From positions 250,001-295,000 of the forward strand of contig JACVTC010000158.1 in the NCBI GenBank assembly GCA_016946835.1: a stretch of DNA of 45,000 nucleotides. The letters are read 5' to 3'. The notes under the pieces were generated by a model. That model did not search any database and had not been told where the DNA came from. It was given only the letters and a program-made list of their open reading frames with translations. Shown piece by piece: positions 7,183 through 40,004 of this stretch (positions within the stretch are counted from its first letter, which is position 1; each line of letters starts with the position of its first letter). The DNA is from Neocallimastix lanati (nom. inval.). Taxonomy: Eukaryota; Neocallimastigomycota; Neocallimastigomycetes; Neocallimastigales; Neocallimastigaceae. A program made the translations under genes and the position numbers.

Positions 7183-7977
7183 TAAATTTTCTTATTGTAG
7201 AATGTAATAATATTACTTGGCAATAATAATAAATATAATTGTATGTATCATACAAATTAATTATAAAAATCATAAAAAAGATCATAAAAAAAAAAGACAT
7301 TTTTATTCTTTTTATTATTATTATTTATTATTTATTATTATTATTATTATTTTATTTTATTTTATTATTTTTTTTAAATTTTCATTAAAAGTATAAATAG
7401 TTTGAAAATAATTAAATATAAAAATTTATAAATATATTCAATAGTAAACAAAGCAAATATACAAATATATAAATAAATATTAAGACAAAATATTAAAAAT
7501 ATATAAGGTAAAAAAAAAAAAAAAAAAAAAAAAATTGAAATAAAAAAAATTAAAAAATAATAATAATAGTAATAATAGTAATAATAATAATTATAGTAAA
7601 TAATAACAAATAAAATAATAATAATTAAAATATATAATTTTTTAGTCATTAAAAGAAAAAAAAATATATAAATATTTTTTTTCGTTTATTAGTAATTAAA
7701 AACAAAATAATTAACAAAGGCAAACAATATATTAAAAAAAAAAAAATTAAAATAGGCAAATAATTATATTAAAAAAAAATTTATAAAAAAAAAAATTTTT
7801 TTTTAAAATATATATTTTATTATTCATTAAATAAAATAATATATATATATTATATAAAAAAAAAAAAAAATTGTGTTGATATGTGAATGTTGTGTATGAA
7901 ATAAATAAATATATTTTTTTTTATTGTATGATAATAAATATTTAAAAGAAGATTTAAAAGTTCTAAATAAAGTTATA
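7183..7977. other. A/T-rich intergenic region between tricalbin and LINE-A
   Basis: Holds the tricalbin 3' flank and then (ATT)n, poly(A) and poly(T) tracts. No gene seen. The last bases (7977-7990) are the left copy of the LINE-A target-site duplication. Confidence 0.7.
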
Positions 7978-7990
7978 TAAAAAGGATTGA
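7977..7990 (+). repeat. Left target-site duplication of LINE-A
   Basis: ATAAAAAGGATTGA occurs here and again at 13322-13335, directly after the LINE-A poly(A) tail. The leading bases cannot be separated from the A-tail, so the certain part is about 12-13 bp. This fixes the 5' end of the element at 7991. Confidence 0.85.
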
Positions 7991-8077
7991 TCCCCGAGCA
8001 GGGGTGTACTCGATTTATGTATTTAAATCGCCTGCAAGGGGAATTAACTTTACTCTTATAAAGTAGATCCACAGTAC
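7991..8077 (+). ncRNA. Structured RNA at the extreme 5' end of LINE-A (possible pseudoknotted fold)
   Basis: The first 12 bases (7991-8002, TCCCCGAGCAGG) pair with 8031-8042 (CCTGCAAGGGGA): five pairs, a GA/AA internal loop, five pairs. Inside is a perfect 7-bp hairpin (8011-8017 with 8024-8030). A further 6-bp hairpin follows (8047-8052 with 8059-8064). GTACT at 8006-8010 can pair with AGTAC at 8073-8077, which would make a pseudoknot. The strand order resembles that of the HDV-like ribozymes found at the 5' ends of several LINEs. However, the closing stem is too long and I cannot find the conserved catalytic core, so ribozyme activity is only a hypothesis. Confidence 0.5.
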
Positions 8078-8116
8078 TGGTGCAAAATAGTAGTAAAGTT
8101 ATATTTTGTGTTAATT

Positions 8117-8146
8117 AATAACATTATGCGCAATGGTAATGTTATT
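8117..8146 (+). promoter_or_regulatory. 10-bp perfect stem-loop in the LINE-A 5' leader
   Basis: AATAACATTA at 8117-8126 is the reverse complement of TAATGTTATT at 8137-8146, with a 10-base loop. It lies in the untranslated leader. Role unknown. Confidence 0.5.
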
Positions 8147-8648
8147 GGTAAAATTTTTCTGGTGAACACTCACTGCGGAATATAATGGTGCATTTTTGGA
8201 ACATTGTTAAATAAGTTACACCCAAGAATTAGTAATACATTTTCATTGTATTTCTATTTTCATGTAGTATTACTATTCTCATGTAAGAATCTATTGTATT
8301 CAATTGTATTTCAACTTTATATTTCATGTATCACGTTGTAAGAGATTGATTCACTCTAAATCTTGTAGTAATTTATTTAACTCTTTACTAATTTTGTGCC
8401 ATTTTATTTCATCAATTCAATCTTAGTCATTAAATACTTTATGATATTCAATTTAAATAATATACTGAAAAAAGTGCTAAATCAAATTATTTTTCAATCA
8501 TTCAACAAACTACTAATTATCGAAATTATTTACTCCAAAAAGATATAAAATTATTACAATTCTCATTATACTCAAGACTTTATATTAAAAATTGACTTTT
8601 TTTTATTTTTTTTTTTAGTTATTAATTTTTAGTTTTTTTATTACTATT

Positions 8649-11600
8649 ATGGAAATCCAATTTATAAGAAATAAGAATTTCATTCTAAGAGGTTCAAGGT
8701 GCCACGGTATACCAATGGAGAATACGAAACTACTCTTTATCCGCGGACTTCGATCTTGGCCAGAAATCAAAATGAGAAGACATTTAAAGAAAACTCTGAA
8801 TGAATTAAATGATAAGGTTTTATCAGTTAAACGTATTGCTAATTTTAATGATGCATTCTTTAAAATTAAAATAGTAGGTAATGAAGAAGAATTAACATCT
8901 ATTACTGATTGTATTGTTAATAGTTTCAAACGTGCTTCAATTAATGTTATTAATTGTAGCAAAAGGAATCATAAATACAGTTTTTCTTCACTCAAAAAGA
9001 AACATTTTGCCTTATCAGAAAAAGTGAATTCATCTTATAATATCAACTTATTCACTACTTCAAATTCAAATGCAGATTCAAGTCAAAATTCAAATTCAAG
9101 TTCAAATACTGATTCATGTTCAAGTTCAAGTACTAGCTCAAGTTCAAGTTCAAGTACAAGTTTAAGTACAAGTTCAAGTACAGGTTCAAGTTCAAGTTCA
9201 AGTCCAAGTTCAAGTACAATTTCAAGTTCAAGTTCAAGTTCAAGTTCAAGTACAAGTTCCAGTTCAATTTCAAATTTATGTTTAAATTCAGTTTCAAGCT
9301 CAGATTCAAATTCAAATTTCAGTTCAATCAATTATAATAATTCCAATAATATTAATAACACTCATATTAATAATAATACAGTTAAAGAATTTTCTCTATG
9401 TGTCAGTTGGAATACTAATGGATGGAACTTTGATAAAAAAGACAGTGTTGAATTCTTTATTTCAATGTACAAACCACTTTTCTTATGCTTTCAGGAAACA
9501 GGAAATGGTTCAGGTTCTAGCAGTAAATATCCATGTCGAGTATCATTAAAAAACTACAAACATTTCTTCAAAAAAGCTAATAATGAAATTCCCGGTAAAA
9601 GAGGTCTTTATATTGGGTTTCATAATTCTTGTCAAGCCTCTCTTGAAAACAACACTTATGAGTATATTATTTCCTTGTATACTTATAATTTTTGGAATTT
9701 CACTAAATGTTCTATTGGTAATGTGTACGTACCTCATAGTGGCCATAGCCTTCATGCTAGAGCTGCTAGAATTGAAATATTGTCTTGGTTAAATAGTCAC
9801 TCTTCTCATCCTTCAATGTTGGTTGGTGATTTTAATTTACCTACTGAGAAATTAAGTAATTTGCTCTCTAAATTTAGTAATTGGAAAATTCTTCCCTTAT
9901 GGGGCTCCCCAATTTCATGGAGTAGAGGTAATAGAGAATCTGCTATAGATCATGCGATTGTCAATGATCATATGTTAGATTTACTTTCATATGGTACTTT
10001 TATTGACTTTCCCCCCATTTCGGATCATAAACCTTTATTAATAAAAGGTAAATGTTTTTCATCAGTTAATTCAGATAATTCTTTCTCTCTGCCTAAAAAG
10101 ACAGTTAAATGGGATAGATTAAAATGTATAAATGAAAAAGAATCAATTTTTGACAACAACTATTTTAGTGTATTAGAGGAAGTGATTCCAGATCCTAATA
10201 TTAGTATTGATGATATTTCAAAGAAATTTATTTCAACTTCATTCAATATTGCTAAGGAACTTAATATCACGTCAATTTCAGAAGTTCGAAAATCTTTTTT
10301 TCATATGTCGCAGAAAATATTTAATTTGCAAAAACTCAAAATGAAATTATATAAATCCATTAAAAGAAGAGGTTCTTATCATAATTTAGATGAATTTGAA
10401 GAATTAATTGATAAATATAATAGAATGTGCAAAATTATTCATCATATGTGTAATATTTATAGGAAAACTGAATACCAACATTGGATTAATACAGGATGTG
10501 AATATATGAAATCTCATAACCCTAAAAAAGCTTGGAAATGGCTTAAAACAACAGCAAAAGTAGATAAATTTAAAAATATGTCAAATTCTCCAGTAAAGGA
10601 CAAAAATGGTAAACTAGCTACTTCTACTAAAGAACAGTTAGAAGTATGGCACAATCACTATAAAAAACTTGCTTCAAGTCATTCTGATATCAATAGTGCA
10701 TTAATCGAATGGTCTAATAAATTTTCCAATGGAACAATTAGGTATACGAGACACAATGAATGGGATATAAATCAAGACATCAGTATAGAAGAAATTAGAG
10801 AAGCAATTTTGGCTACTCCAAATTATAAAGCTTCAGGCCCGGATGGAATTCCTATTGAATTTTATAAAGCTTTAATTCCTCCGGATGACGAAAATTCAGT
10901 AAATAATTCTTCTTCTGGTTTAAATTGTTTACAGAAGATATACTCAAGAATTTGGAATGGAGAATTTCCTAGCTCATGGAATGAAGCAAGTATTATATCT
11001 ATTCCTAAAAAAGGAGATGATCTATCTGATTGTGACAATTATCGAGGTATCTCTCTGATTAACAATGGTATTAAACTCATTTCGAAAATAGTCTCCAAAA
11101 GAATTTCAGAATATGGACTTAAAAATAATTTTATTAGGCCAGAGCAATTTGGATTTCGTACTAAAGAAGAATGTGTTAGTTTATTTATTTCAATTCGAGA
11201 AATTTGTCAAAGGCGTAAAAATGATAATAAAGAAACTTACCTGGCTTTTCTAGATTTAAAAAAGGCATATGATTCTGTTCCAATAGGTAATATTTTATAT
11301 AAATTAGATGCTTTAGGTATTAGAGGTAAATGTTATCAATTTATAAAAAATCTATATTTGACATCCAAAGCTAGTGTTAAAATTGATGATCAATATTCGG
11401 AATCTTTTAATATTATGAAAGGAGTTAGACAAGGTTGTCCACTATCACCAATTCTTTTCAATCTTTTTATTAATGACATTTTTAATGATGTTTCAGAACT
11501 TGGAATTCCTTTAGGCGAATCTAGATGTTGTGGTGGACTCTTTGCAGATGATATTGTTCTATGCGCACCGTCAAGAACTAAGTTGAAAAAAATGCTTAAG

Positions 11601-13052
11601 AAGGTAAATGAATGGGCTAAATTTAATATGATGAATTTTGGAATTAATAAGTGTGCAACGATGGTGATTCGACCAGACACACCTCTTTTTCAAAATAAAA
11701 GAGATCCTACTTTTTATCTTGCTGGTCAACCAATTCCAATAACTAAATGTTATACCTATTTAGGTATACCATTTGATAAAAGCTTATCGTTGAAACCTAT
11801 TATTAAATTACTTAACTCTAAAGTAACTAAAGCTCTCTTTTCTGTTAGTAAATTTCTTTCAAATTCCAAAATTCCTATTCCATTTAAGAAGATTATAATT
11901 AACTCTTATGTACTTAGTAAAGTCTCTTACTTTGCACCTTTACTTGGTTCGAATAAAACGAGAACAAATAATACTCAGAAATTAATTAATAAAGGATTAA
12001 GATGGATTGCAGGTATACAAATAGCCAAATCATTTATTAATGTATATTCTATTTCAAAAGATTTACATATTCCTCCATTGTCAGCTAAGTGTGCTTTGTC
12101 TCAGGTCAAATGTTTTGATAAATGGAAAAATTCAAATTGTATTATTTCCTATTTAGTTAATAATATTCCAAAATCTAGAAAATATACATGGACAAAAGAA
12201 AGTAGAACTCTTAAACGTAAACTAGAGAAAAGAGGTAATAACGATAATAAAATCAAGGATTTTTATTGGAAAAGAGATATGAAAATCAATTCTATTAAAG
12301 CTGAGTTTTATGACAAAAACAAATTCGAAGAAACATCAAAATTTATAAAACTTTGTTATGACTATCCTGATCTTTCATATGGTTTCTATTGGCTATTGAG
12401 AGCACGAAGCGGATATAGATTAGATGCTAGAATTGCTAAAGCTGCAAAAATAGTGGACCGAATGTGTCCTAATTTTTGTCCCTGTTGTAAAAGTAATAAA
12501 CAATGGATAAGTCATTGGTTAATTGATTGTCCCTTTTTCAATCATACTCGTAGTAAAGTTAATGATAAAATTTTATTTTTATATAATGCTTTTTACCGTG
12601 GCAACCTTACAAATGATATTGTTAATAGTAATAATGATAATAGTAATAGTAATAATAGTAATAGTTATAATAGTAATAATAATATTAGTAATAGTATTTT
12701 TAGTAATGTTAGTAATAGTATTGAAAATAATGTGTATATTGATTCTAGTGTGTGTGAAAAAGTGTTTAATTTCCTTCTTGGAGGTCGAAGTATTAATAAC
12801 AGTACAAGGGAATGGAAGGATCTATTTAAGTGCCAGATGAAATCAGGTGCTTATTCTGATACTCCGTTCTTAGTGGTTACTGCGGCACTTCTCCAATCGA
12901 TTATACCTATTGCTATTGGCCAGCAATGGTCTTTGTTCAATAGGTTCAAATCGAATCGTACTACTACTACCAAGAGCGTCAATGCTGAAGAAACAGTAAG
13001 ACAGGCCAGCAGGGCTAGCGCAACCAATGAAGATCATAATTTTGTATCTTAA
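8649..13052 (+). CDS. LINE-A polyprotein: endonuclease / reverse transcriptase / CCHC finger
   Basis: 1467 residues, uninterrupted. Residues about 25-100 have an RRM-like strand/helix pattern (LLFIRGL near the start) and may be an RNA-binding domain. About 135-205 is almost pure Ser, from TCAAGT hexamer repeats. An APE-type endonuclease spans about 247-465: SWNTNGW near 253, QETG near 281, VGDFN near 391, AIDH near 431, SDHKP near 458. Reverse transcriptase spans about 720-1010: SGPDGIPIEF, IPKKGD, NYRGISL, FLDLKKAYDS, GVRQGCPLSPILFN and FADD at 965-968. A C-x2-C-x8-H-x4-C finger lies at 1277-1294. An Asn/Ser-rich tract (about 1323-1362) follows. The protein nicks target DNA and copies its own RNA there. 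No separate upstream ORF1 is visible, which suggests a one-ORF element. The first ATG after the leader was taken as start. Confidence 0.93.
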   Translation: MEIQFIRNKNFILRGSRCHGIPMENTKLLFIRGLRSWPEIKMRRHLKKTLNELNDKVLSVKRIANFNDAFFKIKIVGNEEELTSITDCIVNSFKRASINVINCSKRNHKYSFSSLKKKHFALSEKVNSSYNINLFTTSNSNADSSQNSNSSSNTDSCSSSSTSSSSSSSTSLSTSSSTGSSSSSSPSSSTISSSSSSSSSSTSSSSISNLCLNSVSSSDSNSNFSSINYNNSNNINNTHINNNTVKEFSLCVSWNTNGWNFDKKDSVEFFISMYKPLFLCFQETGNGSGSSSKYPCRVSLKNYKHFFKKANNEIPGKRGLYIGFHNSCQASLENNTYEYIISLYTYNFWNFTKCSIGNVYVPHSGHSLHARAARIEILSWLNSHSSHPSMLVGDFNLPTEKLSNLLSKFSNWKILPLWGSPISWSRGNRESAIDHAIVNDHMLDLLSYGTFIDFPPISDHKPLLIKGKCFSSVNSDNSFSLPKKTVKWDRLKCINEKESIFDNNYFSVLEEVIPDPNISIDDISKKFISTSFNIAKELNITSISEVRKSFFHMSQKIFNLQKLKMKLYKSIKRRGSYHNLDEFEELIDKYNRMCKIIHHMCNIYRKTEYQHWINTGCEYMKSHNPKKAWKWLKTTAKVDKFKNMSNSPVKDKNGKLATSTKEQLEVWHNHYKKLASSHSDINSALIEWSNKFSNGTIRYTRHNEWDINQDISIEEIREAILATPNYKASGPDGIPIEFYKALIPPDDENSVNNSSSGLNCLQKIYSRIWNGEFPSSWNEASIISIPKKGDDLSDCDNYRGISLINNGIKLISKIVSKRISEYGLKNNFIRPEQFGFRTKEECVSLFISIREICQRRKNDNKETYLAFLDLKKAYDSVPIGNILYKLDALGIRGKCYQFIKNLYLTSKASVKIDDQYSESFNIMKGVRQGCPLSPILFNLFINDIFNDVSELGIPLGESRCCGGLFADDIVLCAPSRTKLKKMLKKVNEWAKFNMMNFGINKCATMVIRPDTPLFQNKRDPTFYLAGQPIPITKCYTYLGIPFDKSLSLKPIIKLLNSKVTKALFSVSKFLSNSKIPIPFKKIIINSYVLSKVSYFAPLLGSNKTRTNNTQKLINKGLRWIAGIQIAKSFINVYSISKDLHIPPLSAKCALSQVKCFDKWKNSNCIISYLVNNIPKSRKYTWTKESRTLKRKLEKRGNNDNKIKDFYWKRDMKINSIKAEFYDKNKFEETSKFIKLCYDYPDLSYGFYWLLRARSGYRLDARIAKAAKIVDRMCPNFCPCCKSNKQWISHWLIDCPFFNHTRSKVNDKILFLYNAFYRGNLTNDIVNSNNDNSNSNNSNSYNSNNNISNSIFSNVSNSIENNVYIDSSVCEKVFNFLLGGRSINNSTREWKDLFKCQMKSGAYSDTPFLVVTAALLQSIIPIAIGQQWSLFNRFKSNRTTTTKSVNAEETVRQASRASATNEDHNFVS
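9070..9330 (+). repeat. TCAAGT-type hexamer repeat coding for a Ser-rich linker in LINE-A
   Basis: Imperfect tandem TCAAGT/TCAAGTAC units encode alternating Ser codons between the N-terminal domain and the endonuclease. On the other strand the same repeat makes spurious Glu/Leu frames. Confidence 0.8.
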
Positions 13053-13282
13053 AATTATGATTAACATTGCGAAGTCAAAGTTAATTATTATACTTCAGTA
13101 TAATAATGCCCTTGTGAAGTCTTACAAATATTAATTAAATGAAACTAGAATATATTATACCATTATTTTATTTTTATTTTGTGTTTTATTTTTTGTTTAT
13201 TTTTTTATCTTTTTTTTTTATTATTTTATTACATGTATTTTATCAAATATTTAATTAATAAAGATGAAACAAGTTTGCTGCC

Positions 13283-13321
<39 letters not shown>

Positions 13322-13324
<3 letters not shown>

Positions 13325-13335
13325 AAAAGGATTGA
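13322..13335 (+). repeat. Right target-site duplication of LINE-A
   Basis: Second copy of ATAAAAAGGATTGA, directly after the LINE-A A-tail. See 7977-7990. Confidence 0.85.
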
Positions 13336-13370
13336 ATGATTGGAATGTTTTGTTTAATAACCAAATTTAA

Positions 13371-13497
13371 TCACTGAAACCTATACAATCCAAATTAACA
13401 GTAATTTAAATGTCAAGTTAAATTTGTACTTTCGATTTCTTATTAATAAATCTGTTCCTCTCCCATTGAAGAAATATGTTTTAATTTCGTTTATTCT
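13371..13497 (+). repeat. Displaced LINE-B fragment, direct repeat of about 15580-15706
   Basis: Nearly identical to the stretch downstream of the reverse transcriptase core of the same element. It is in the same orientation but in a different reading frame from the endonuclease sequence it abuts. It marks a rearrangement at the 5' end of LINE-B. Confidence 0.85.
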
Positions 13498-13500
13498 AGT

Positions 13501-16500
13501 AATATTTATGTTCCTACGGTCACTCATAAGGAAGAAAGAAAGAATGCCTTTTCAGAAATTACTAATTGGATAAAGAAACATACTAATACACCTTCTATTC
13601 TTGTAGGTGACTTTAATATGTCTAAATCCCAATTAGATAGTTTACTTAATAAATCATCTTATCAGTGGTTCACTAAAAACTTATCAGGTCTCGATTTCAC
13701 ATGGGCTCGGGATGGTAGATCGTCTTGTATTGATCATGTTTTATTTAATTGTAAAATGAAGGAATACGTATCTGTTTGTAGTACATTCAATGATATATCT
13801 GACCACTTCCCTCTTATCCTTTTCTGTAAGAAAGATGACTCTGAAGGTTTTCGTGCTCCTACTCCTTCTAGAAGATTCAAGTGGTTCCAACGCATGTGTA
13901 ATGAAAAGCATAATGAAATATTCTCAAGTAACTACTTCTCAATTCTTCTTAATGAATTTGATGATAATAAAGAATTAAGTTCTAATGAAATGGTCAATAA
14001 ATTTATAGAAACAGCTAATAAAGTTGGTGATAAAGTTCATGCTAGAGTTCCTTGTGATCTTAAAGGATCAGCTTTCCACTGCCCTTATTATATCAAGAGA
14101 CTTTCTCATGAAAAGCATGATGCATTTAATGAAATCAAAAATTTTTCTTTAGGTTCTAATCTTGAAAACCTTGATGAATTTTTAAATTTGCTTCGTGAGT
14201 ATAAAAATATATGTGGTAAAGTCAGGTCAATTAAGTTTTCTATTAAATCAAAACAATTTCATCAGTCAATAGAATCTGCATGTAATGATTTTAGTAATAA
14301 AAATGTTAGGAGTGCTTGGTTAAAATTAAAGAAGCTATCTCGCCCTATGTACTCTAATTCTATTTCGTCAAGTGTTTTAAAGGACAAGCAGGGTAACTTT
14401 TTATTTTCACATTCGGATCAATTAAATCGATTTGCTGAACATTACAGTGAACTAGCTTCTGATGTTACTCAACACAGTTTGGATAATGAATACTGGGTAA
14501 GTTTATTTGGAACTAATCCTAATAATAATCTTACTTGGGATATTAATGATTCTATTACTATGGAAGAAATTCAAAACGCTGTGCTTGAAATGAAAAACAA
14601 TAAAGCTCCTGGACCCGATGGTATTCCGATTGAATTTTTTAAAGCCTTCTTTAGTAAATCTGATTTATCCGATAATCAAGATGATTCTTCAGATGATCAC
14701 TACTCTAAGTGTGCTAAATGTTTACTTTCATTATTTAACAAAATCTGGGATGGTGATTTCCCTGAAGAGTGGAATTCAGCTTCTATAATATCAATTCCAA
14801 AAAAAGGAGATCTTTCGGATTGTAATAATTATCGTGGTATTTCTCTTATTAATGTTGGCTTAAAAATTATTTCAAAGATTGTTACTAATAGAATTGCTAA
14901 ATATGCCCTTGAACATAAATTTGTTAGACCTGAACAATTTGGATTTAGAAATAAAGAAGAATGCATAAGTTTGTATATTTCAATTAGAGAGATATGTCAA
15001 AGAAGAAAATTTAAAGGAAATTTTACTTATCTTGCTTTTCTCGATCTTAAAAAAGCCTATGATTCAGTTCCTATCTTTAATATTTTGACCAAATTATATA
15101 ACTTAGGAATTAGAGATAAATGTCATCTGTTTTTAAAGAATCTTTATCTATCCTCTAAAGCTCGTGCTTTTTTTAATGGTAATCTCTCAGAAGAATTTTC
15201 GATTAATCGTGGTGTTAGACAAGGATGCCCTCTATCTCCTATTTTATTCAATTTGTTCATTAATGATATACTGGATAATTGTGATAAGTATGGTGTATAT
15301 TTAGATTCTCAATATTGTTGTGGTGGACTTTTTGCGGATGATATTGTTTTAGTTGCTCCATCTAAACAAGCTCTTAAGAAAATTTTGAATAAAGTTCATG
15401 AATGGGCTATTAAAAATGAAATGACTTTTGGAATTAATAAGTGTGCTACTCTTGTTGTAAAACCAATTAACTTTGTTAAACCGATAAATTATGAAGATCC
15501 ATCTTTCTTTATTGGTAGTAAAAAATTACCTAAAACTGACAACTATACTTATCTTGATATTCCTTTTGATGAATCTTTATCACTGAAACCTATACAATCC
15601 AAATTAAACAGTAATTTAAATGTCAAATTAAATTCGTACTTTCGATTTCTTATTAATAAATCTATTCCTCTCCCATTGAAGAAATATGTTTTAATTTCGT
15701 TTATTCTTAGTCTTGTTTTATATTATGCTGCTCTCTTTGGTTTAAATAAGAGCAGATGCTCTAAAGCTCAAAAAATTATTAATAGAGGACTTTATTGGAG
15801 TTATGGATTTAAATCTCGCAATTCTTCTGTTAGTCTCTATGATATTACTCTTGAATTGAGAATACCTTCTCTTTCATCTGTCTGTGATATATCTTAATTA
15901 CACTGCTTTAGAAAATGGGGAAAACTCATCATGTATTATTTATCATCTCACTAATAATATTCGACTATGTCACATTACTCATAAACTAAAGAATCAAGGA
16001 CTTTGGATAAGAAATTAAATGGTAAAAAAAAAACAAGTGAAATAAAAAAGTTTTATTGGGAAAGAGATGTCTTCAAACCTTCAAAAGCTAAATAAGCAAT
16101 TATTTACAAGGAGAATGATTTTGGATTGATTTCAGAAATCAAAAACTTAACATTTCAATATCCTAAGTATCAGTTAGAATTCTTTTGGATTTCTCGAATT
16201 AGGTGTGGTTTTAAATTTGACATGAGTATTTCCATTAAAAGAAAAATTGTCTCAGAAGATTGCCCTAAATGTTGCCCTTGTTGTGGTGTTAGTGTACCCA
16301 ACTTTTCTCACTGGATCTTTGCCTGTAAAGAATTGAAAAAATACAGAAATAAATCTTTACCTTTTCTAGATGATCTCTTTTTGAAGTTTGCAATGATAAT
16401 TGAACAAAAATCCTTGGATGTTTCTTTAGATTCAGAAAAGGATTATGATAATAATATTTATTATAATATATTGAGTGCTCTTCTTGGTGTGCGTTCAATA

Positions 16501-16842
16501 TATTCAAAAATTAAAGTTAATGATGGGGAACAAAGACAATTAGTTGACAATATTTTTAAACAAAGTTCAACTGTTCCGTATTTTGTGAGGATTGCGGAGT
16601 TTCTAACGAACGTAATACCATTAATTTGTCGATCTTTTAGTTTGATGATGAAATGGTATTCCGTTGAATCTACCGTTACCAAGAGCGTCAACGTCGAAAT
16701 GATAAGGCATGGATTTTCACCTCCAGATACAGATTCGATTGATAACACTAATACTGAAATTATTACTCGCAATAATGGACGTGGTGTTATTATCGAGGAA
16801 TGGGAAAAGTTAGAGGCTATTGCTTCTAACGCACTTTTATAA
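13501..16842 (+). pseudogene. LINE-B polyprotein, partial endonuclease plus reverse transcriptase plus CCHC region, disrupted
   Basis: An open frame runs from the junction near 13501 to the TAA at 15895-15897, with the first ATG at 13618. It holds the distal endonuclease (LVGDFNM, SCIDHVLFN, SDHFPLIL) and a complete-looking reverse transcriptase (APGPDGIPIEFF, IPKKGD, NYRGISL, FLDLKKAYDS, GVRQGCPLSPILFN, FADD at about 15331). The in-frame stop, a frameshift near 15925 and further stops near 16016 and 16093 separate it from a last open piece (about 16126-16842). That piece has the same C-x2-C-x8-H-x4-C finger (CPCC then HWIFAC). The first 390 or so residues expected from LINE-A are missing. 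It is not expected to encode a working protein. Confidence 0.85.
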
Positions 16843-16959
16843 TTTTATAATATATAATATTTTATTTTATGTATTTTATTTGTTATTTTTCATTTAAATC
16901 ATGTAATTTTATTATTATTATGAATTAAATAAAGTTTTCTCTAAGTCTAAAAAAAAAAA

Positions 16960-17615
16960 AAGAACCTATCTCTAATATTTTGACCAAATTATATAACTTA
17001 GGAATTGGAGGTAAATGTCATCTGTTTTTAAAGAATCTTTATCTATCCTCTAAAGCTCGTGCTTTTTTTAATGGTAATCTCTCAGAAGAATTTTCGATTA
17101 ATCGTGGTGTTAGACAAGGATGCCCTCTATCTCCTATTTTATTCAGTTTGTTCATTAATGATGTACTGGATAATTGTGATAAGTATGGTGTATATTTAGA
17201 TTCTCAATATTGTTGTGGTGGACTTTTTGCGGATGATACTGTTTTGGTTGCTCCATCTAAACAAGCTCTTAAGAAAATTTTGAAATAAAGTTCATGAATG
17301 GGCTATTAAAAATGGAATGACTTTTGGAATTAATAAGTGTGCTACTCTTGTTGTAAAACCAATTAACTTTGTTAAACAGATAAACTACGAAGATCCATCT
17401 TTCTTTATTGGTAGTAACAATAATGGACTTGGTGCTATCATTGATGAATGGGAAAAGTTGGAGGCTATTGCTTCTAACGCATTTATATAATTTTATAATA
17501 TATAATATTTTATTTCATGTATTTTATTTCATTTTTTTTTTCATTAAAATCATATAATTTTATTATTATTATAAATTAAATAAAGTTTTCTCTAAGTCTA
17601 AAAAAAAAAAAAAAT
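16960..17615 (+). mobile_element. LINE-B copy 2: 5'-truncated, internally deleted
   Basis: Begins directly after the A-tail of copy 1, inside the reverse transcriptase (matching about 15070 onward), and covers GVRQGCPLSP and FADD. An extra A near 17283 shifts the frame, and the FADD copy reads FADDT instead of FADDI. At about 17416 it jumps from sequence like 15526 to sequence like 16770, losing roughly 1.25 kb, then continues to the same 3' UTR and an A-tail (about 17601-17614). The open stretch 16980-17288 is only a remnant. Confidence 0.87.
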
Positions 17616-17869
17616 TTTGAATATTACTTTTTATTTCACATTACTCTTCTAAATCTAAATATTAAAAGTTCTAATTGGACAAATAATATTTTTTTTTTAA
17701 TTCTGTGTTTCTTTATTGTTTTTTTTTCTTTTTAAATTAAAAATATTCATTTATTTAATAAATAAATAAATAAAAATTAAAGTAAGTTTTTTTATTTTTT
17801 TAAACATTTTTCAACTTTGAAGATTCAAAAAGTGAAATAAAATTTTATTTGAACTTTCAACTTTGAAAG
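17616..17869. other. A/T-rich spacer between LINE-B copy 2 and decayed LINE-C
   Basis: No gene. Contains the motif TTTCAACTTTGAA twice (about 17809-17821 and 17857-17869), about 35 bp apart, just before the LINE-C homology begins. This may be chance or an old duplication. Confidence 0.5.
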
Positions 17870-19215
17870 TAGCACTTCTCAGAATGAATCCTAACCAAGA
17901 AGTTACTTATTCCGATTGTGCAAAATATTTATTTTTTAGTATTACATAAAATTTGAGATGGAGAATATCCTGCTATCTATTTTTTCTATTCCTTAAGAAA
18001 GGGAATCCTTCAGATTATAATAATTAACCGTGGTTATTTTCACTATCTTATCAATGTAGGATTAAAGATTCTGTTAAAAAATTTCTCTAAAACTATGCAT
18101 TTTCTCATAAAATTATTAGACCAGAACAGTTTTGGTTTAGAAATAAAGAAGAATGAATTAGCTTATTTTATCTCTATTCGTGAAGTTTCTCAAAGAAGAA
18201 AATTTAATGATCAATTTATCTTATTTTTTTTGACCTCAAGAAAAAAAAAAAAAAAAAAAAAAAGCTTATGATACAGTTCCAATTTATAATAAAACTAAAA
18301 ATCTTAATAATATTGGTATTCGTGGTTAATGTCTTCAATTTTTTTCCAATCCATCGTGGTGTTCGTCAAGGATATCCCTTATCATCTATTTGATAAATAC
18401 AAGAGATATGATAATAATTACTGCTAAAAAAAAAAAAAGTGTTGTGATGGGTTTATTTGCTGATGATATTTTCTTGCTATTACCTACAAAATCCTCTTTT
18501 AAAAACCTTTTAAATAAAGTTCATGATTGGGGTATCAAAAATAAAGTGACCTTTTGAAATTAGTAAATACAATATACTTGTTATATTTGTCGTTAAAACC
18601 AATTCATTCAATATATTGATGAAATTTTTTATTAATTTGTCTTTAATTGTTCATGAAAAATCATTTGAACATTTCCGATGGTAAAGAGGACGATTTTGAT
18701 GATTAATAATAATTAAAAGGTACTGTGATTCCTTAGTAGGAAAGACAGTATATGAAGTTTTAAAAATTAACTCGGAGGAAAGAAATCGCTTTAAATTAAT
18801 AATATTTTTATATCACCTAAGAGGGTCTTCTTCTTTCCCTTTTACATATTTTGTAGGGATTACGAGAATTCATTACTAAAGTTATGCCTATTTTGATCAA
18901 TGATTTTTTTTTTTTTTTTTTTACATTATGATCAAATTGTATACCATTAGACCAACCTACAGTTGTCAAGAATCGTTGACATCAAAGCGATAAGACAAAG
19001 AAGAAATTCTAATAAAGATTCGAAATGATAGCTATTATTCTCATAGAGCTATCATCGATGAATGGGAAAGAGTTAGAAGTCATTTCGTTCTTGAAACTCA
19101 TTGCGAAGTTTTTTTTTTTTAATATTAATGTAAAAAATTTCATGTATTTTATTTTCATGTATTTTTAAAAATTATTCAATAGGGATAAGAAAGTAATAAA
19201 TAAAATTTAGAAAAA
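17870..19215 (+). pseudogene. Decayed LINE-C copy (reverse transcriptase to 3' end)
   Basis: Short pieces in all three frames match the minus-strand LINE-C and LINE-B. They include a relic of the IPKKGD/NYRGISL region (about 17990-18060), RPEQFWFRNKEE (about 18117-18155), DLKKAYDT split by an A-run (about 18230-18275), HRGVRQG (about 18351), GLFADDI (about 18450) and the C-terminal end. The 3' UTR shares the TTTCATGTATTT motif of the minus copy. Many stops and frameshifts, no TSD recognised. Several simple A or T runs in the ancestral sequence have grown to 14-24 bases. Confidence 0.8.
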
Positions 19216-19330
19216 AGGATAATTAGGAGTCACTTTTTTTTTATTTTAATTATATTATAATGTCTTATATAAAAATCAAAAAGTTTAAGTATATTAACTT
19301 TTTTTTTACTCTTCAAAACCCACACATATA

Positions 19331-19505
19331 TATATTTATCAGAAATGATATTTAAAGAGATATAAAAAAAAAAAAAAAAAAAGAATATATCAGAAATAAT
19401 ATTTAAGAGTTATAAAAGCAAAAAACAAAAAACAAAAAACAAAAAAAAACAAAAAAAAACAAAAAAAAAGAATATATCATAAATGATATTTAAAGAGTTG
19501 CAAAA
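19331..19505 (+). repeat. Three diverged ~36-bp tandem units, each followed by an A-rich tract
   Basis: Units at about 19331-19367, 19383-19417 and 19470-19505 share the core ATCAGAAATGATATTTAA (third copy ATCATAAATGATATTTAA). Each is followed by poly(A) or CAAAAAA repeats. The arrangement looks like repeated short A-tailed pieces. Origin unknown. Confidence 0.65.
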
Positions 19506-19515
19506 ACAAAACCAA

Positions 19516-19880
<365 letters not shown>

Positions 19881-20120
19881 CTTTTATACTGAAACCAAGC
19901 TATATCTGATTAGCATTGGGATGTAGGTTTCCTTGCCCAGCATGGTTGAATGGTTTAAGCATGAGTATTTCACCAATTTATGACTTATATATACGAAATA
20001 GGCAGCTGAAGCACGTTTTAACATGCAAAAGTGTCTTTAATTTTATATGAAATATAAAATTAAGAACACTTTATTCTTCATAAGTGAGAAATTTTTTTTG
20101 AAAAAATAAAAAAAAAAAAA
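19881..20120 (+). other. Non-repetitive island with a tRNA D-arm-like motif and a long hairpin
   Basis: More balanced in base composition than its surroundings. CATGGTTGAATGGTTTAAGC at 19941-19960 resembles the D arm / A box of a tRNA-Ser or tRNA-Leu gene, but no B box follows. Downstream is a strong hairpin: 20029-20048 pairs with 20052-20071, with a 3-base loop and one 2-base internal mismatch. It could be a SINE remnant. Confidence 0.4.
20029..20071. repeat. Long inverted repeat (18 paired bases)
   Basis: AAGTGT plus TTAATTTTATAT pairs with ATATAAAATTAA plus ACACTT around the loop GAA. A 2-base mismatch separates the two helices. Confidence 0.85.
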
Positions 20121-20129
20121 AAAACAGTT

Positions 20130-20335
20130 TAGAAGCCTTAGATTTTAATTATTGAAATAAATCCAAAATCATTTTCCTTGTAAATAATTGCTTTTTTAGC
20201 TTCTGAGGGTTTGAAGACATCGCTTTCCCAATAAAACTTTTTTATTTCACTTGATTTTTTACCAATTAATTTCTTATCTGTCCTTAATTCTTTAGTTCGT
20301 GAGTAATGTGACATAGTAGGAATATTTGTGAAATT
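20130..20335 (-). mobile_element. Short LINE-B fragment
   Basis: On the minus strand this matches the plus-strand region about 15955-16130 of LINE-B copy 1, between the reverse transcriptase and the CCHC finger. It has neither end of the element. It lies just outside the target duplication of the minus-strand LINE-C, so LINE-C inserted next to or into it. Confidence 0.8.
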
Positions 20336-20354
20336 TAATTAAATAGATAAAAAG

Positions 20355-20363
20355 TAGATAAAT

Positions 20364-20367
<4 letters not shown>
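20355..20367. repeat. Target-site duplication of minus-strand LINE-C (A-tail side)
   Basis: TAGATAAATAGAT, repeated exactly at 22209-22221, directly abuts the T-run that is the element's A-tail on the minus strand. Confidence 0.8.
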
Positions 20368-20413
<46 letters not shown>

Positions 20414-22208
20414 CTAGGAATAAACTTTATTTAATAATATTTTAATTTTTTTTTAAAAAATACATGAAGTTTAAATACATGAAATTTTTTTTTTATATTA
20501 ATATTAAAAAACTACGTTATGAGATTCGAGGACGAAAAGGCCTCTAACTCTTCCCATTCATCGAAGATAACTCCATGTGGATGAAAATTATCATTCGAAT
20601 CTGTATCAGAATTTCTTCTTTGCCTTATCGTTACGACGTCGACGCTCTTGACAACGGTAGGTCTAACACTATACAAATCGATCATGGTGTAAAAATCACC
20701 CATCACAATAGGCATAACGTTAGTAAGGAATTCCGCAAGCCCCACAAAATATGAAATCGGGAAAGAAGACTCGTTCGAAGGTGATTGAAAAATATTATTA
20801 ATATATCGCCTTCTTTCCCCCGAGCCGATCTTTAAGATTTCAAATACGGCATTTCCGCCAAGAAGGAGACACAGCACGTAAAAATTGATATTATCATCAA
20901 AATCTTCCTCTTTATCATCAGGAATGTTCAATGATTTCTCATGAACAATAAGAGAAAAATTAATAAAAATTTCATCAACAAAGGGAATGAAATGTTGCCT
21001 AAATTCTTCAAATTTAGGACATAAAAGTATCCAATGTGTAAAACTAGGTATGCTGTTACTCTCACCACAACAAGGGCAGTATGTTGGGCAATTTTCTGAT
21101 ACTAGATTACTTTTAACATACGTTTTTACATCAAATTTGAATCCACATTTAATTCGTCCAATCCAAAAAAATCCAAGAGAAAATTGTGAATATTTAAGTG
21201 ATAGACGTTGAATAAATTTTTTAAAACCAAATTTAAATTTCTTGTATTTTGTAGATCTGATCGCAGGAGTGCTTGAATAATGAATATTTTCCCAGTAAAA
21301 CTTCCTTATTTCTCCAGGAAGTTTATTATTGTGCTTGTGTACTGCTAAACTCCGTGCTTTTTTCGTCCAAGAATAGTGAGAAAGTGTAGGTATATTTTTG
21401 ACTAAATGAGAAATAATACAAGAAGAATCTTTCCACTTTTTAAAGCATCGAATCATCGCTTTAGCACAAAAACTAGCTATAGGAGGTATAGAAAGTTCCT
21501 TAGACATATTGTAAATTGAAGTATTGGAGGTTTTATTTTTAAACCCGAAACTCCAGTACAAACCTCGATTAAAAGCAGTTTGAGCTTTTTCAATATTCTT
21601 TTTATTTGAACCAAGTAAGGGAGCATAATAAAGAACTGAACTAAGGACAAAAGAAACTAGTATACGAGTTTTAAAGTAGAAAGGAACATTCCTATTGGTT
21701 AAAAAACTAAAGAAAGAGTTAACTGTATAATTAATTTTACTATTCATCTTAGCAATAATAGGTTTTAAATCCAACGATTCATTAAAAGGTATACCAAGAT
21801 ATGTATATTGATTAGTGCTTGGTATATAGTTCATACCAAGTCTAAATGTAGGATTTTCATAATGTCTTGAAGGAATAAAATTCTTTGGTTTAACAACTAG
21901 TGTAGCGCATTTATTGATTCCAAAGGTCATTTCATTTTTAATACCCCAATCATGAGCAATATTCAAAAGGTTTTTAAGTGAAGATTTTGTAGGAGCTAAT
22001 AATACAATATCATCAGCAAATAATCCACCACAACACTTTTTCTTTTCAGTAATCACACCATAACTTTTACATTTATCAAAAATATCATTGATAAATATAT
22101 TGAATAAAATAGGTGAGAGAGGACATCCTTGGCGAACACCACGGTGTATTGGAAATTCTTTTGAAAGTTTACCATTAAAGTTTGTAGTTGACTGTAGAAT
22201 TATATAGT
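20368..22208 (-). mobile_element. LINE-C, 5'-truncated, with target-site duplication
   Basis: Read on the minus strand it starts inside the reverse transcriptase at 22208, codes to 20512, has a 100-bp 3' UTR with ATTAAATAAAG, and ends in a tail of about 43 A (20410-20368). Exact 13-bp copies of TAGATAAATAGAT flank it. 5' truncation is the usual outcome of target-primed reverse transcription. Confidence 0.9.
20512..22208 (-). CDS. LINE-C polyprotein, C-terminal part (reverse transcriptase core to CCHC end)
   Basis: Open without a stop from the 5' truncation point (about 565 codons). Only a GTG near 22056 could start the annotated frame and no ATG begins it, so it is a fragment. It contains HRGVRQGCPLSPILFN (about 22140-22090), GLFADDIV, a YLGIPF motif after the core, and a finger of CPCC, then HWILLC, with 10 residues before the His. 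It ends at TAA/TGA-proximal sequence near 20512. The absence of stops and frameshifts points to recent insertion. With no endonuclease and no complete reverse transcriptase it should be inactive. Confidence 0.82.
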
Positions 22209-22221
22209 TAGATAAATAGAT
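22209..22221. repeat. Target-site duplication of minus-strand LINE-C (5' side)
   Basis: Second copy of TAGATAAATAGAT. See 20355-20367. Confidence 0.8.
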
Positions 22222-22442
22222 AAAAGTAGAAATATTTTGATGGATGTATTATCCACATAATGAATGACTATCAAATTTATTTAAATTAAAAAAATAAAAA
22301 AAATAAAAAAAATAATCTTTAGAGAGGATTAAATCTATGAATATATAATTATCGATGTAATTTAGAAAGGAAATAATTTTTTTTTTTTTTTTTTTAATCA
22401 TTAAGATTAAAAACAAATTTAATATTAAATAAATAAATAAAA

Positions 22443-39500: not shown

Positions 39501-39512
39501 TTTATATATGTA
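39501..39512. repeat. Left target-site duplication of the SINE-like element
   Basis: TTTATATATGTA, repeated at 39993-40004 right after the T-tail. The site is A/T-rich, so some of the match could be chance. The left copy, however, ends exactly one base before the first base of the tRNA-like acceptor stem. Confidence 0.65.
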
Positions 39513-39587
39513 GCCATGTTGGTCCAGTCGGTTAGGACGATACAGGTCACTGTAGAGGGCGGGGTTCGAATCCTCGGCATGGCACCA
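39513..39587 (+). other. tRNA-derived head of the SINE (pol III A and B boxes)
   Basis: Acceptor arm GCCATGT (39513-39519) pairs with GCATGGC (39577-39583), followed by A and an encoded CCA (39585-39587). D arm GTCC/GGAC with loop AGTCGGTTA (39522-39538). T arm CGGGG/CCTCG with loop TTCGAAT (39560-39576). A box around 39519-39530 and an exact B box GGTTCGAATCC (39563-39573). The anticodon arm is two bases short, with a 6-base loop (GGTCAC) and only four pairs, so this is a derived promoter domain, not a working tRNA. The loop is nearest to tRNA-Asp. Confidence 0.85.
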
Positions 39588-39953
39588 AATAATCGGATGA
39601 GGTTTCTATCCTGGGATATCATGAGACCACACGTGATGTCCATAAGGCTTTCCCTCTGATGATTATTTCACCCAACCCTGATACTACTCTTTGAATTGAA
39701 GCATAGACCTTGATGATTGTAAAATTTCCAATCGCCAATGATTACACCCACTAGGGAGGAGTTAATGGTTCCGTTCTGATGCTCGTGGTCATTAGAGATA
39801 TATGTAGGAACGTTAGGAATGCATCTCCGGGCAGTGTGTAACGACGATTGAGAGCGGCGAAGCTGATACAGTATGCCAATAACTCATCACCTTACAGTTA
39901 ATTAATAACTGTATGGCCATATGGGAGATGGGTACCCATATGTGCAAGTCTAT

Positions 39954-39992
<39 letters not shown>
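39513..39992 (+). mobile_element. tRNA-headed SINE-like element with poly(T) tail
   Basis: A sharply bounded island of balanced base composition (about 440 bp) in nearly pure A/T DNA. It opens with a tRNA-like domain (39513-39587), continues with about 365 bp of non-tRNA body with no long convincing ORF, and ends in a run of about 37 T. A 12-bp direct repeat flanks it. Head, body, tail and duplication are the layout of a SINE. The T-tail on the same strand as the pol III promoter is unusual, since most SINEs end in A-rich or short repeats. I do not recognise the family. Confidence 0.75.
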
Positions 39993-39998
<6 letters not shown>

Positions 39999-40004
39999 TA
40001 TGTA
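39993..40004. repeat. Right target-site duplication of the SINE-like element
   Basis: Second copy of TTTATATATGTA after the T-run. Its first T bases cannot be separated from the tail. Confidence 0.6.

Follow-up and report, generated by a model that had tools for sequence, protein, structure and literature searches.

The element at positions 39501–40004 of the window (the whole 45,000-nucleotide stretch of Neocallimastix lanati DNA that was analysed) is very probably one copy of a tRNA-derived SINE family of an anaerobic gut fungus, recently active, presumably transcribed by RNA polymerase III, and mobilised by a LINE through priming of an A tract on the U end of the SINE RNA. Near-identical copies are scattered over the genome between distinct target-site duplications, some of them cut at the 5' end, and their T tails vary in length.

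Structure of the element

Along the window, the element and its borders read as follows.

39501..39512, no strand: left target-site duplication, TTTATATATGTA, read from the sequence
39513..39954, + strand: SINE core, 442 bp, identical to the subfamily A consensus except at 39657 and 39688
39513..39587, + strand: tRNA-like head with an encoded CCA at its end; the anticodon stem is closed by a 4-nt loop
39520..39531, + strand: A box, TGGTCCAGTCGG, read from the sequence
39563..39573, + strand: B box, GGTTCGAATCC, read from the sequence
39588..39893, + strand: tRNA-unrelated body
39894..39912, + strand: first predicted 3' hairpin, ACAGTTA..TAACTGT
39918..39942, + strand: second predicted 3' hairpin, CATATGGG..CCCATATG; in subfamily B the stem is one pair longer, through an insertion on each arm
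39946..39952, + strand: AAGTCTA, which one resident LINE class also has at its end, immediately 5' of the poly(A)
39955..39992, + strand: T tail of 38 T, followed by 3 T equally assignable to the duplication
39993..40004, no strand: right target-site duplication, TTTATATATGTA

The initial annotation had described a tRNA head with intact A and B boxes and an encoded CCA, followed by T37 and a 12-bp duplication. Direct reading of 39513–39587 confirmed the head, and the duplication is present at 39501–39512 and 39993–40004; the tail had been counted short, the uninterrupted run at 39955–39995 being 41 T, the final three of them ambiguous with the right duplication. Judged against the consensus, TGGTCCAGTCGG and GGTTCGAATCC are intact A and B boxes. 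ARAGORN reported the head as a tRNA whose two-base anticodon could not be read, and the Rfam tRNA model gave no match at its cut-off anywhere within the window, head included. Lacking a usable anticodon and falling below the Rfam cut-off, the sequence is thus a degenerate tRNA head and not a tRNA gene. The G+C content of the core is 45%, against 15% in the flanks of 30 copies. The sense strand of the whole core contains no run of four T, an absence that is not significant (13% of mononucleotide and 33% of dinucleotide shuffles lack one as well), and the folding energies are unremarkable (z of -1.1 to -1.9, with a further value of -1.5).

A genome search for tRNAs listed 63 matches, 57 of them at an equal top score. 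The one candidate source tRNA that was read (L150, on contig C67) is a tRNA-Arg(TCT) and was set aside, being by eye unlike the SINE head. As a separate observation, 31 of the 57 equal-score matches lie on a single contig (C555:170732-399007), some 530–553 bp apart, as in a tandem array. Wider searches gave partial, weak matches in phage records, none covering 80%; an exact 20-base body pattern was absent from the viral contigs searched, and one exact head pattern from the prokaryote genomes searched.

A young family dispersed over the genome

The host assembly comprises 199 Mb in 762 contigs and is AT-rich. The fungal dockerin PF02013 is associated with Neocallimastigomycota, and in this assembly all 150 scored matches, the best 150 of 1,440 candidates, were to that domain, with none in 14 bacterial and archaeal control genomes. 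Taken with the size and A+T content of the assembly, this indicates a host in that phylum. A DNA search with a 445-base SINE query gave 40 scored matches (the best 40 of 630 first-look candidates), every one full-length at about 100%. Exact patterns extend this count: a 15-mer from the 3' end occurs at 305 genome sites, a 24-mer from the head at 216, and the end pattern of subfamily B at 44, and the reversed control of each occurs at none. The first 60 of the 305 3'-end sites were fetched and all proved to be this SINE, 34 of them complete from base 1–4 through to the 3' end, the other 26 shortened or damaged. Seen from the other end, 66 of the 71 heads on contigs C1–C111 (of 216 in total) have a SINE end at full-length distance. 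For 52 of the 71 the exact 3' end lies about 430 bp downstream, as paired by position with partial reading; the remaining 19 were fetched: 5 are broken, and 14 run the full length but either have diverged at the end or reach the flank after fewer than three T.

Heads and ends lying 0.8 to 5.8 kb apart raised the possibility of longer elements, which we rejected: those that were read proved to be copies either interrupted or nested (L133 with L092; L139), the 5.8-kb pair on C89 having been read at its head only (L145). In the case of L133 and L092 (C13:1438848-1440597), one SINE seems to be interrupted by about 1.3 kb of inserted DNA, which has an 8-base near-repeat (ACGCTTTG / ACACTTTG) on either side and is possibly a DNA transposon.

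Identity to the subfamily A consensus in 38 of 78 full-length copies, including 11 among the 48 not chosen for likeness, marks the family as young, and it was probably active very recently. Seven copies, recognised by their 3' end, and L142, recognised by its hairpin sequence, fall into subfamily B, the older of the two. Between the A and B consensus sequences there are 8 substitutions and 3 indels, and two of the indels, an extra T and an extra G (the latter being A in two old copies), stand opposite each other in the 3' hairpin. Pairing at this place is kept in A, in B, and in the old copies L137 and L143 (as T-A), which carry other changes in the stem. That both halves of the pair came or went together suggests selection on the stem. 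Since the position is mismatched or bulged in seven further old copies (L080, L085, L092, L094, L112, L120 and L125), the facing indels count as support for such selection, not as proof.

Marks of target-primed insertion

Flanking duplications were sought in 90 copies, the 30 best matches and the 60 fetched 3'-end sites, with a threshold of at least 10 bp. Such a duplication flanks 73 copies, is absent from 17, and is distinct in 72 cases; lengths run from 11 to 19 bp with a mode of 15, and 50 of the 72 fall at 14–16 bp. At least two of those counted (L083 and L090) are mere T runs. The initial annotation had held that a SINE would be proved by many copies that all start at one 5' position, have T tails and differ in their flanking duplications, and would be refuted by a single copy or by shared flanks. 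What the genome contains is the former: 305 sites, 66 of 71 heads with full-length spacing, and 72 distinct duplications among the 73 measurable.

The duplication is retained in 15 of the 26 shorter copies. Ten of these (L067, L068, L084, L088, L091, L105, L109, L117, L123 and L124) have a 15–17 bp duplication that starts at most one base from the cut, the signature that target-primed reverse transcription of the LINE type leaves. Dispersed or segmental duplication of an RNA polymerase III-transcribed non-coding RNA gene, without retroposition, would account for copies that are near-identical and for one pair, L007 and L008, with a flank and duplication in common; given that the other duplications are distinct, that flanks differ, that 5' cuts come with duplications, and that tails vary, we allow it virtually no chance. 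Judged by the 5' truncation and variable tails seen in the sequence, the SINE is retroposed by target-primed reverse transcription.

Three unusual copies were met along the way. L175 (on C62) is cut inside the 3' hairpin, and its first bases form a perfect palindrome, ATACTGGGTACCCAGTAT, as though the end of the cDNA had snapped back and primed itself. In L080 (on C5), the last 186 bases of the SINE are fused to an apparent partial tRNA arm with the B-box-like GGTGTTCGAATA, which suggests a template-switch chimera. L156 (on C22) holds the last 18 bases of the SINE only, with the telomere-repeat-like AACCCTAACA upstream.

The T tail and its probable primer

Between the core and the duplication (72 copies), the tail is all T or empty in 52 cases, T with G in 19, and TTTATG in 1; its length has a median of 10 bases and ranges from 0 to 40. 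T tails occur in both subfamilies, and A-tailed copies were found nowhere in the genome above control (TGCAAGTCTAAAAA, 1 site, control 1; GCAAGTCTATGAAAA, 0 sites, control 0). Beside a T tail, detection itself biases the start of a duplication to T, and the junction is exact only where the tail ends in G; at these exact junctions, the duplication begins with T in 11 of 12 copies, against 44% T in the flanks (binomial 0.0008). Such T-first duplications point to an A tract at the target as the probable primer, pairing with the U end of the polymerase III transcript.

Five copies selected by their heads (L136, L137, L141, L147 and L149) have no T beyond the duplication, and so a long T tail is dispensable for insertion. 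The SINE RNA probably needs just a few U of the polymerase III terminator, with the long T tract made during insertion. This offers a likely and plain answer to a puzzle raised in the initial annotation, that a T tail on the polymerase III strand would normally end transcription after a few T. Tail repeats such as TTTTGTTTGTTTG resemble stuttering on an RNA-terminal G-U-U-U, which we infer as their source, an inherited interrupted tail being the alternative; in the same way, long T tails could be inherited from the source copy rather than produced by slippage.

Which LINE may move the element

Eight LINE ends were read, four in the window and four elsewhere, in a sample steered by the window and by one endonuclease family, and all eight carry poly(A). 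Among the five genome stretches fetched for this purpose, four hold A-tailed LINEs and one (L130) is LTR-like. A search with RVT_1 yielded no LINEs: LTR elements dominate it, and the loci opened, which we take to be Ty3-like, show integrase-type frame ends. The resident LINE of the window compared with the SINE is located as follows.

7991..13321, + strand: LINE of one resident class, full-length, with 14-bp duplications

It lies in a nest of several LINE copies (7977–22248), the others being cut or inserted into one another. The window LINE encodes an Exo_endo_phos endonuclease along with a reverse transcriptase that, of the solved structures, matches LINE-1 ORF2p best; a search of solved structures for relatives of one LINE segment found none. 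As to target sites, the window LINE has one clear duplication, L151 and L129 have 9–10 bp by eye, and L152 and L128 none by eye.

One LINE class ends in CTAAGTCTA(A)n, with 298 exact sites when A12 is included (control 1); a second ends in CCTAGTCTA(A)n, a third in GCCGTT(A)n, and the SINE in GCAAGTCTATG(T)n. The comparison with LINE 3' ends that the initial annotation had suggested gave a 7-nt match, AAGTCTA, in one class, and beyond this no longer match, no hairpin in common, and LINE tails of poly(A). Across the three classes read, the SINE and LINE ends have at most 7 nt in common, and in the third class 3 only, where a stringent-type SINE/LINE pair would share tens of bases. Seven shared bases at the same place were reached by 289 of 20,000 shuffled SINE ends (1.4%) and by none of 414 interior 14-base windows of the SINE; arising by chance at that rate, and having been spotted before it was tested, the match serves as a lead only. 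At -2.0 to -4.3 kcal/mol the LINE ends form weak folds, against -17.1 for the SINE end, whose hairpin they therefore lack.

From the other direction, the last nine bases of the SINE followed by T6 (AAGTCTATGTTTTTT) occur at 187 sites (control 4). All 63 whose positions could be checked coincide with the longer SINE end pattern, and the 40 of these that were read are SINEs; no T-tailed LINE was found among the 63.

Two candidate helpers can be weighed on this evidence. The first is a resident poly(A)-tailed L1-like LINE that would recognise the SINE 3' end (AAGUCUA, perhaps more) and tolerate the U end. It draws on the 7-base match between the two ends, on the lack of a T-tailed LINE among the checked AAGTCTATGTTTTTT sites, and on a precedent from plants, where the T-tailed ZmSINE2 and the A-tailed ZmSINE3 alike share their 3' end with LINE1-1_ZM (PMC3747384). 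Set against it are the shortness and chance rate of that match, the 3 nt of the third class, the missing hairpin, and the sole LINE target in the window for which both ends were read, which starts with ATAAAAAGG, unlike the T-first SINE targets, a difference that the choice of primer could explain. We consider this helper possible, while leaning against it. The second candidate is another, T-tailed LINE clade of the same genome, outside our steered sample of LINE ends. T-first targets and a T tail would fit a LINE whose RNA ends in U, and none of the LINE ends read has an equivalent of the SINE 3' hairpins, whereas none of the 63 checked AAGTCTATGTTTTTT sites departed from the SINE. To this clade we assign nearly an even chance, and it is because of the fold result that we place it slightly ahead of the resident A-tailed LINEs.

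Discussion

Our preferred reading of the element, a retroposing SINE primed on its U end, can be put as a sequence of steps. RNA polymerase III would start at the tRNA head by means of the A and B boxes and terminate among the first T of the tail; the transcript, about 445 nt long, would end in ...CUAUG-U(n). A LINE-encoded protein would capture this RNA at its 3' end and nick AT-rich DNA, where a 3' A tract at the nick would pair with the U end and prime the copying. The tail may then be lengthened by slippage on this short stretch of U to as many as 40 T, with the adjacent G sometimes copied in. A cut in the second strand about 15 bp away would produce the target-site duplication, and an early stop of copying would leave the 5'-cut copies.

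How does this family compare with known systems? The initial annotation had called a T tail on the polymerase III strand rare, and it is indeed uncommon, poly(T) SINEs being exceptions; it is also already in print for plants (PMC3747384). There, p-SINE1-3 of rice end in (T)n and Au in (T)2-5, the LINE tail being entered as "no data" for both; a poly(U)-recognising LINE, not yet identified, is suggested for T-tailed SINEs; and ZmSINE2 ends in (T)n and has a 3' hairpin in common with the L1-clade LINE1-1_ZM (PMC3747384). Like the plant p-SINE1-3, Au, ZmSINE1 and ZmSINE2, the gut-fungus SINE is tRNA-derived and ends in (T)n or a short T stretch without poly(A) (PMC3747384). The likeness is one of layout; the host belongs to another kingdom, and its SINE tails extend to 40 bases, in some copies with G interrupting the T. 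Unlike the ZmSINE2 hairpin, which is common to its LINE (PMC3747384), the hairpin of the gut-fungus SINE is present in none of the LINE ends read.

Among fungi, the screen for Aspergillus SINEs looked for an oligothymidine tract that follows the tRNA-unrelated part (PMC5063351). AfuSINE2 of Aspergillus fumigatus is thus, like our element, fungal, tRNA-related and drawn from an oligothymidine screen, with its CCA end marked; in contrast, it is of low copy number, with degenerate promoter boxes and no cloverleaf fold, whereas the gut-fungus SINE has hundreds of near-identical copies and intact boxes (PMC5063351). Mg-SINE with MgL in Magnaporthe and SINE2-1_BG with Tad1-24_BG in Blumeria likewise join a fungal tRNA SINE to a LINE helper, as would be the case here. 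Those pairs are listed with a common tail (PMC3747384), and no such pair was found for the gut-fungus SINE among the LINE ends read. Our search of the open-access literature found no report of a SINE in anaerobic gut fungi, consistent with a family that may be undescribed. Because T-tailed tRNA SINEs are known from plants, it represents a new family of a known kind.

What is the relevance of such a family? Poly(T) SINEs such as p-SINE and Au come with "no data" on the helper LINE (PMC3747384). A more specific proposal is that an A-tailed L1-like LINE mobilises a U-ended polymerase III RNA, its reverse transcriptase reading a short 3' signal (AAGUCUA, perhaps the SINE stem) and the primer at the nick, whether A tract or T tract, following the end of the RNA, so that the terminator would double as the priming site. 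We judge this unlikely; if true, a LINE of this type whose primer matches the RNA end would answer the question of what moves poly(T) SINEs. A family that is young, abundant and near-uniform, with clean duplications, renders the primer, the slippage and the helper readable from sequence and open to test, and it adds a recently active SINE to the anaerobic gut fungi.
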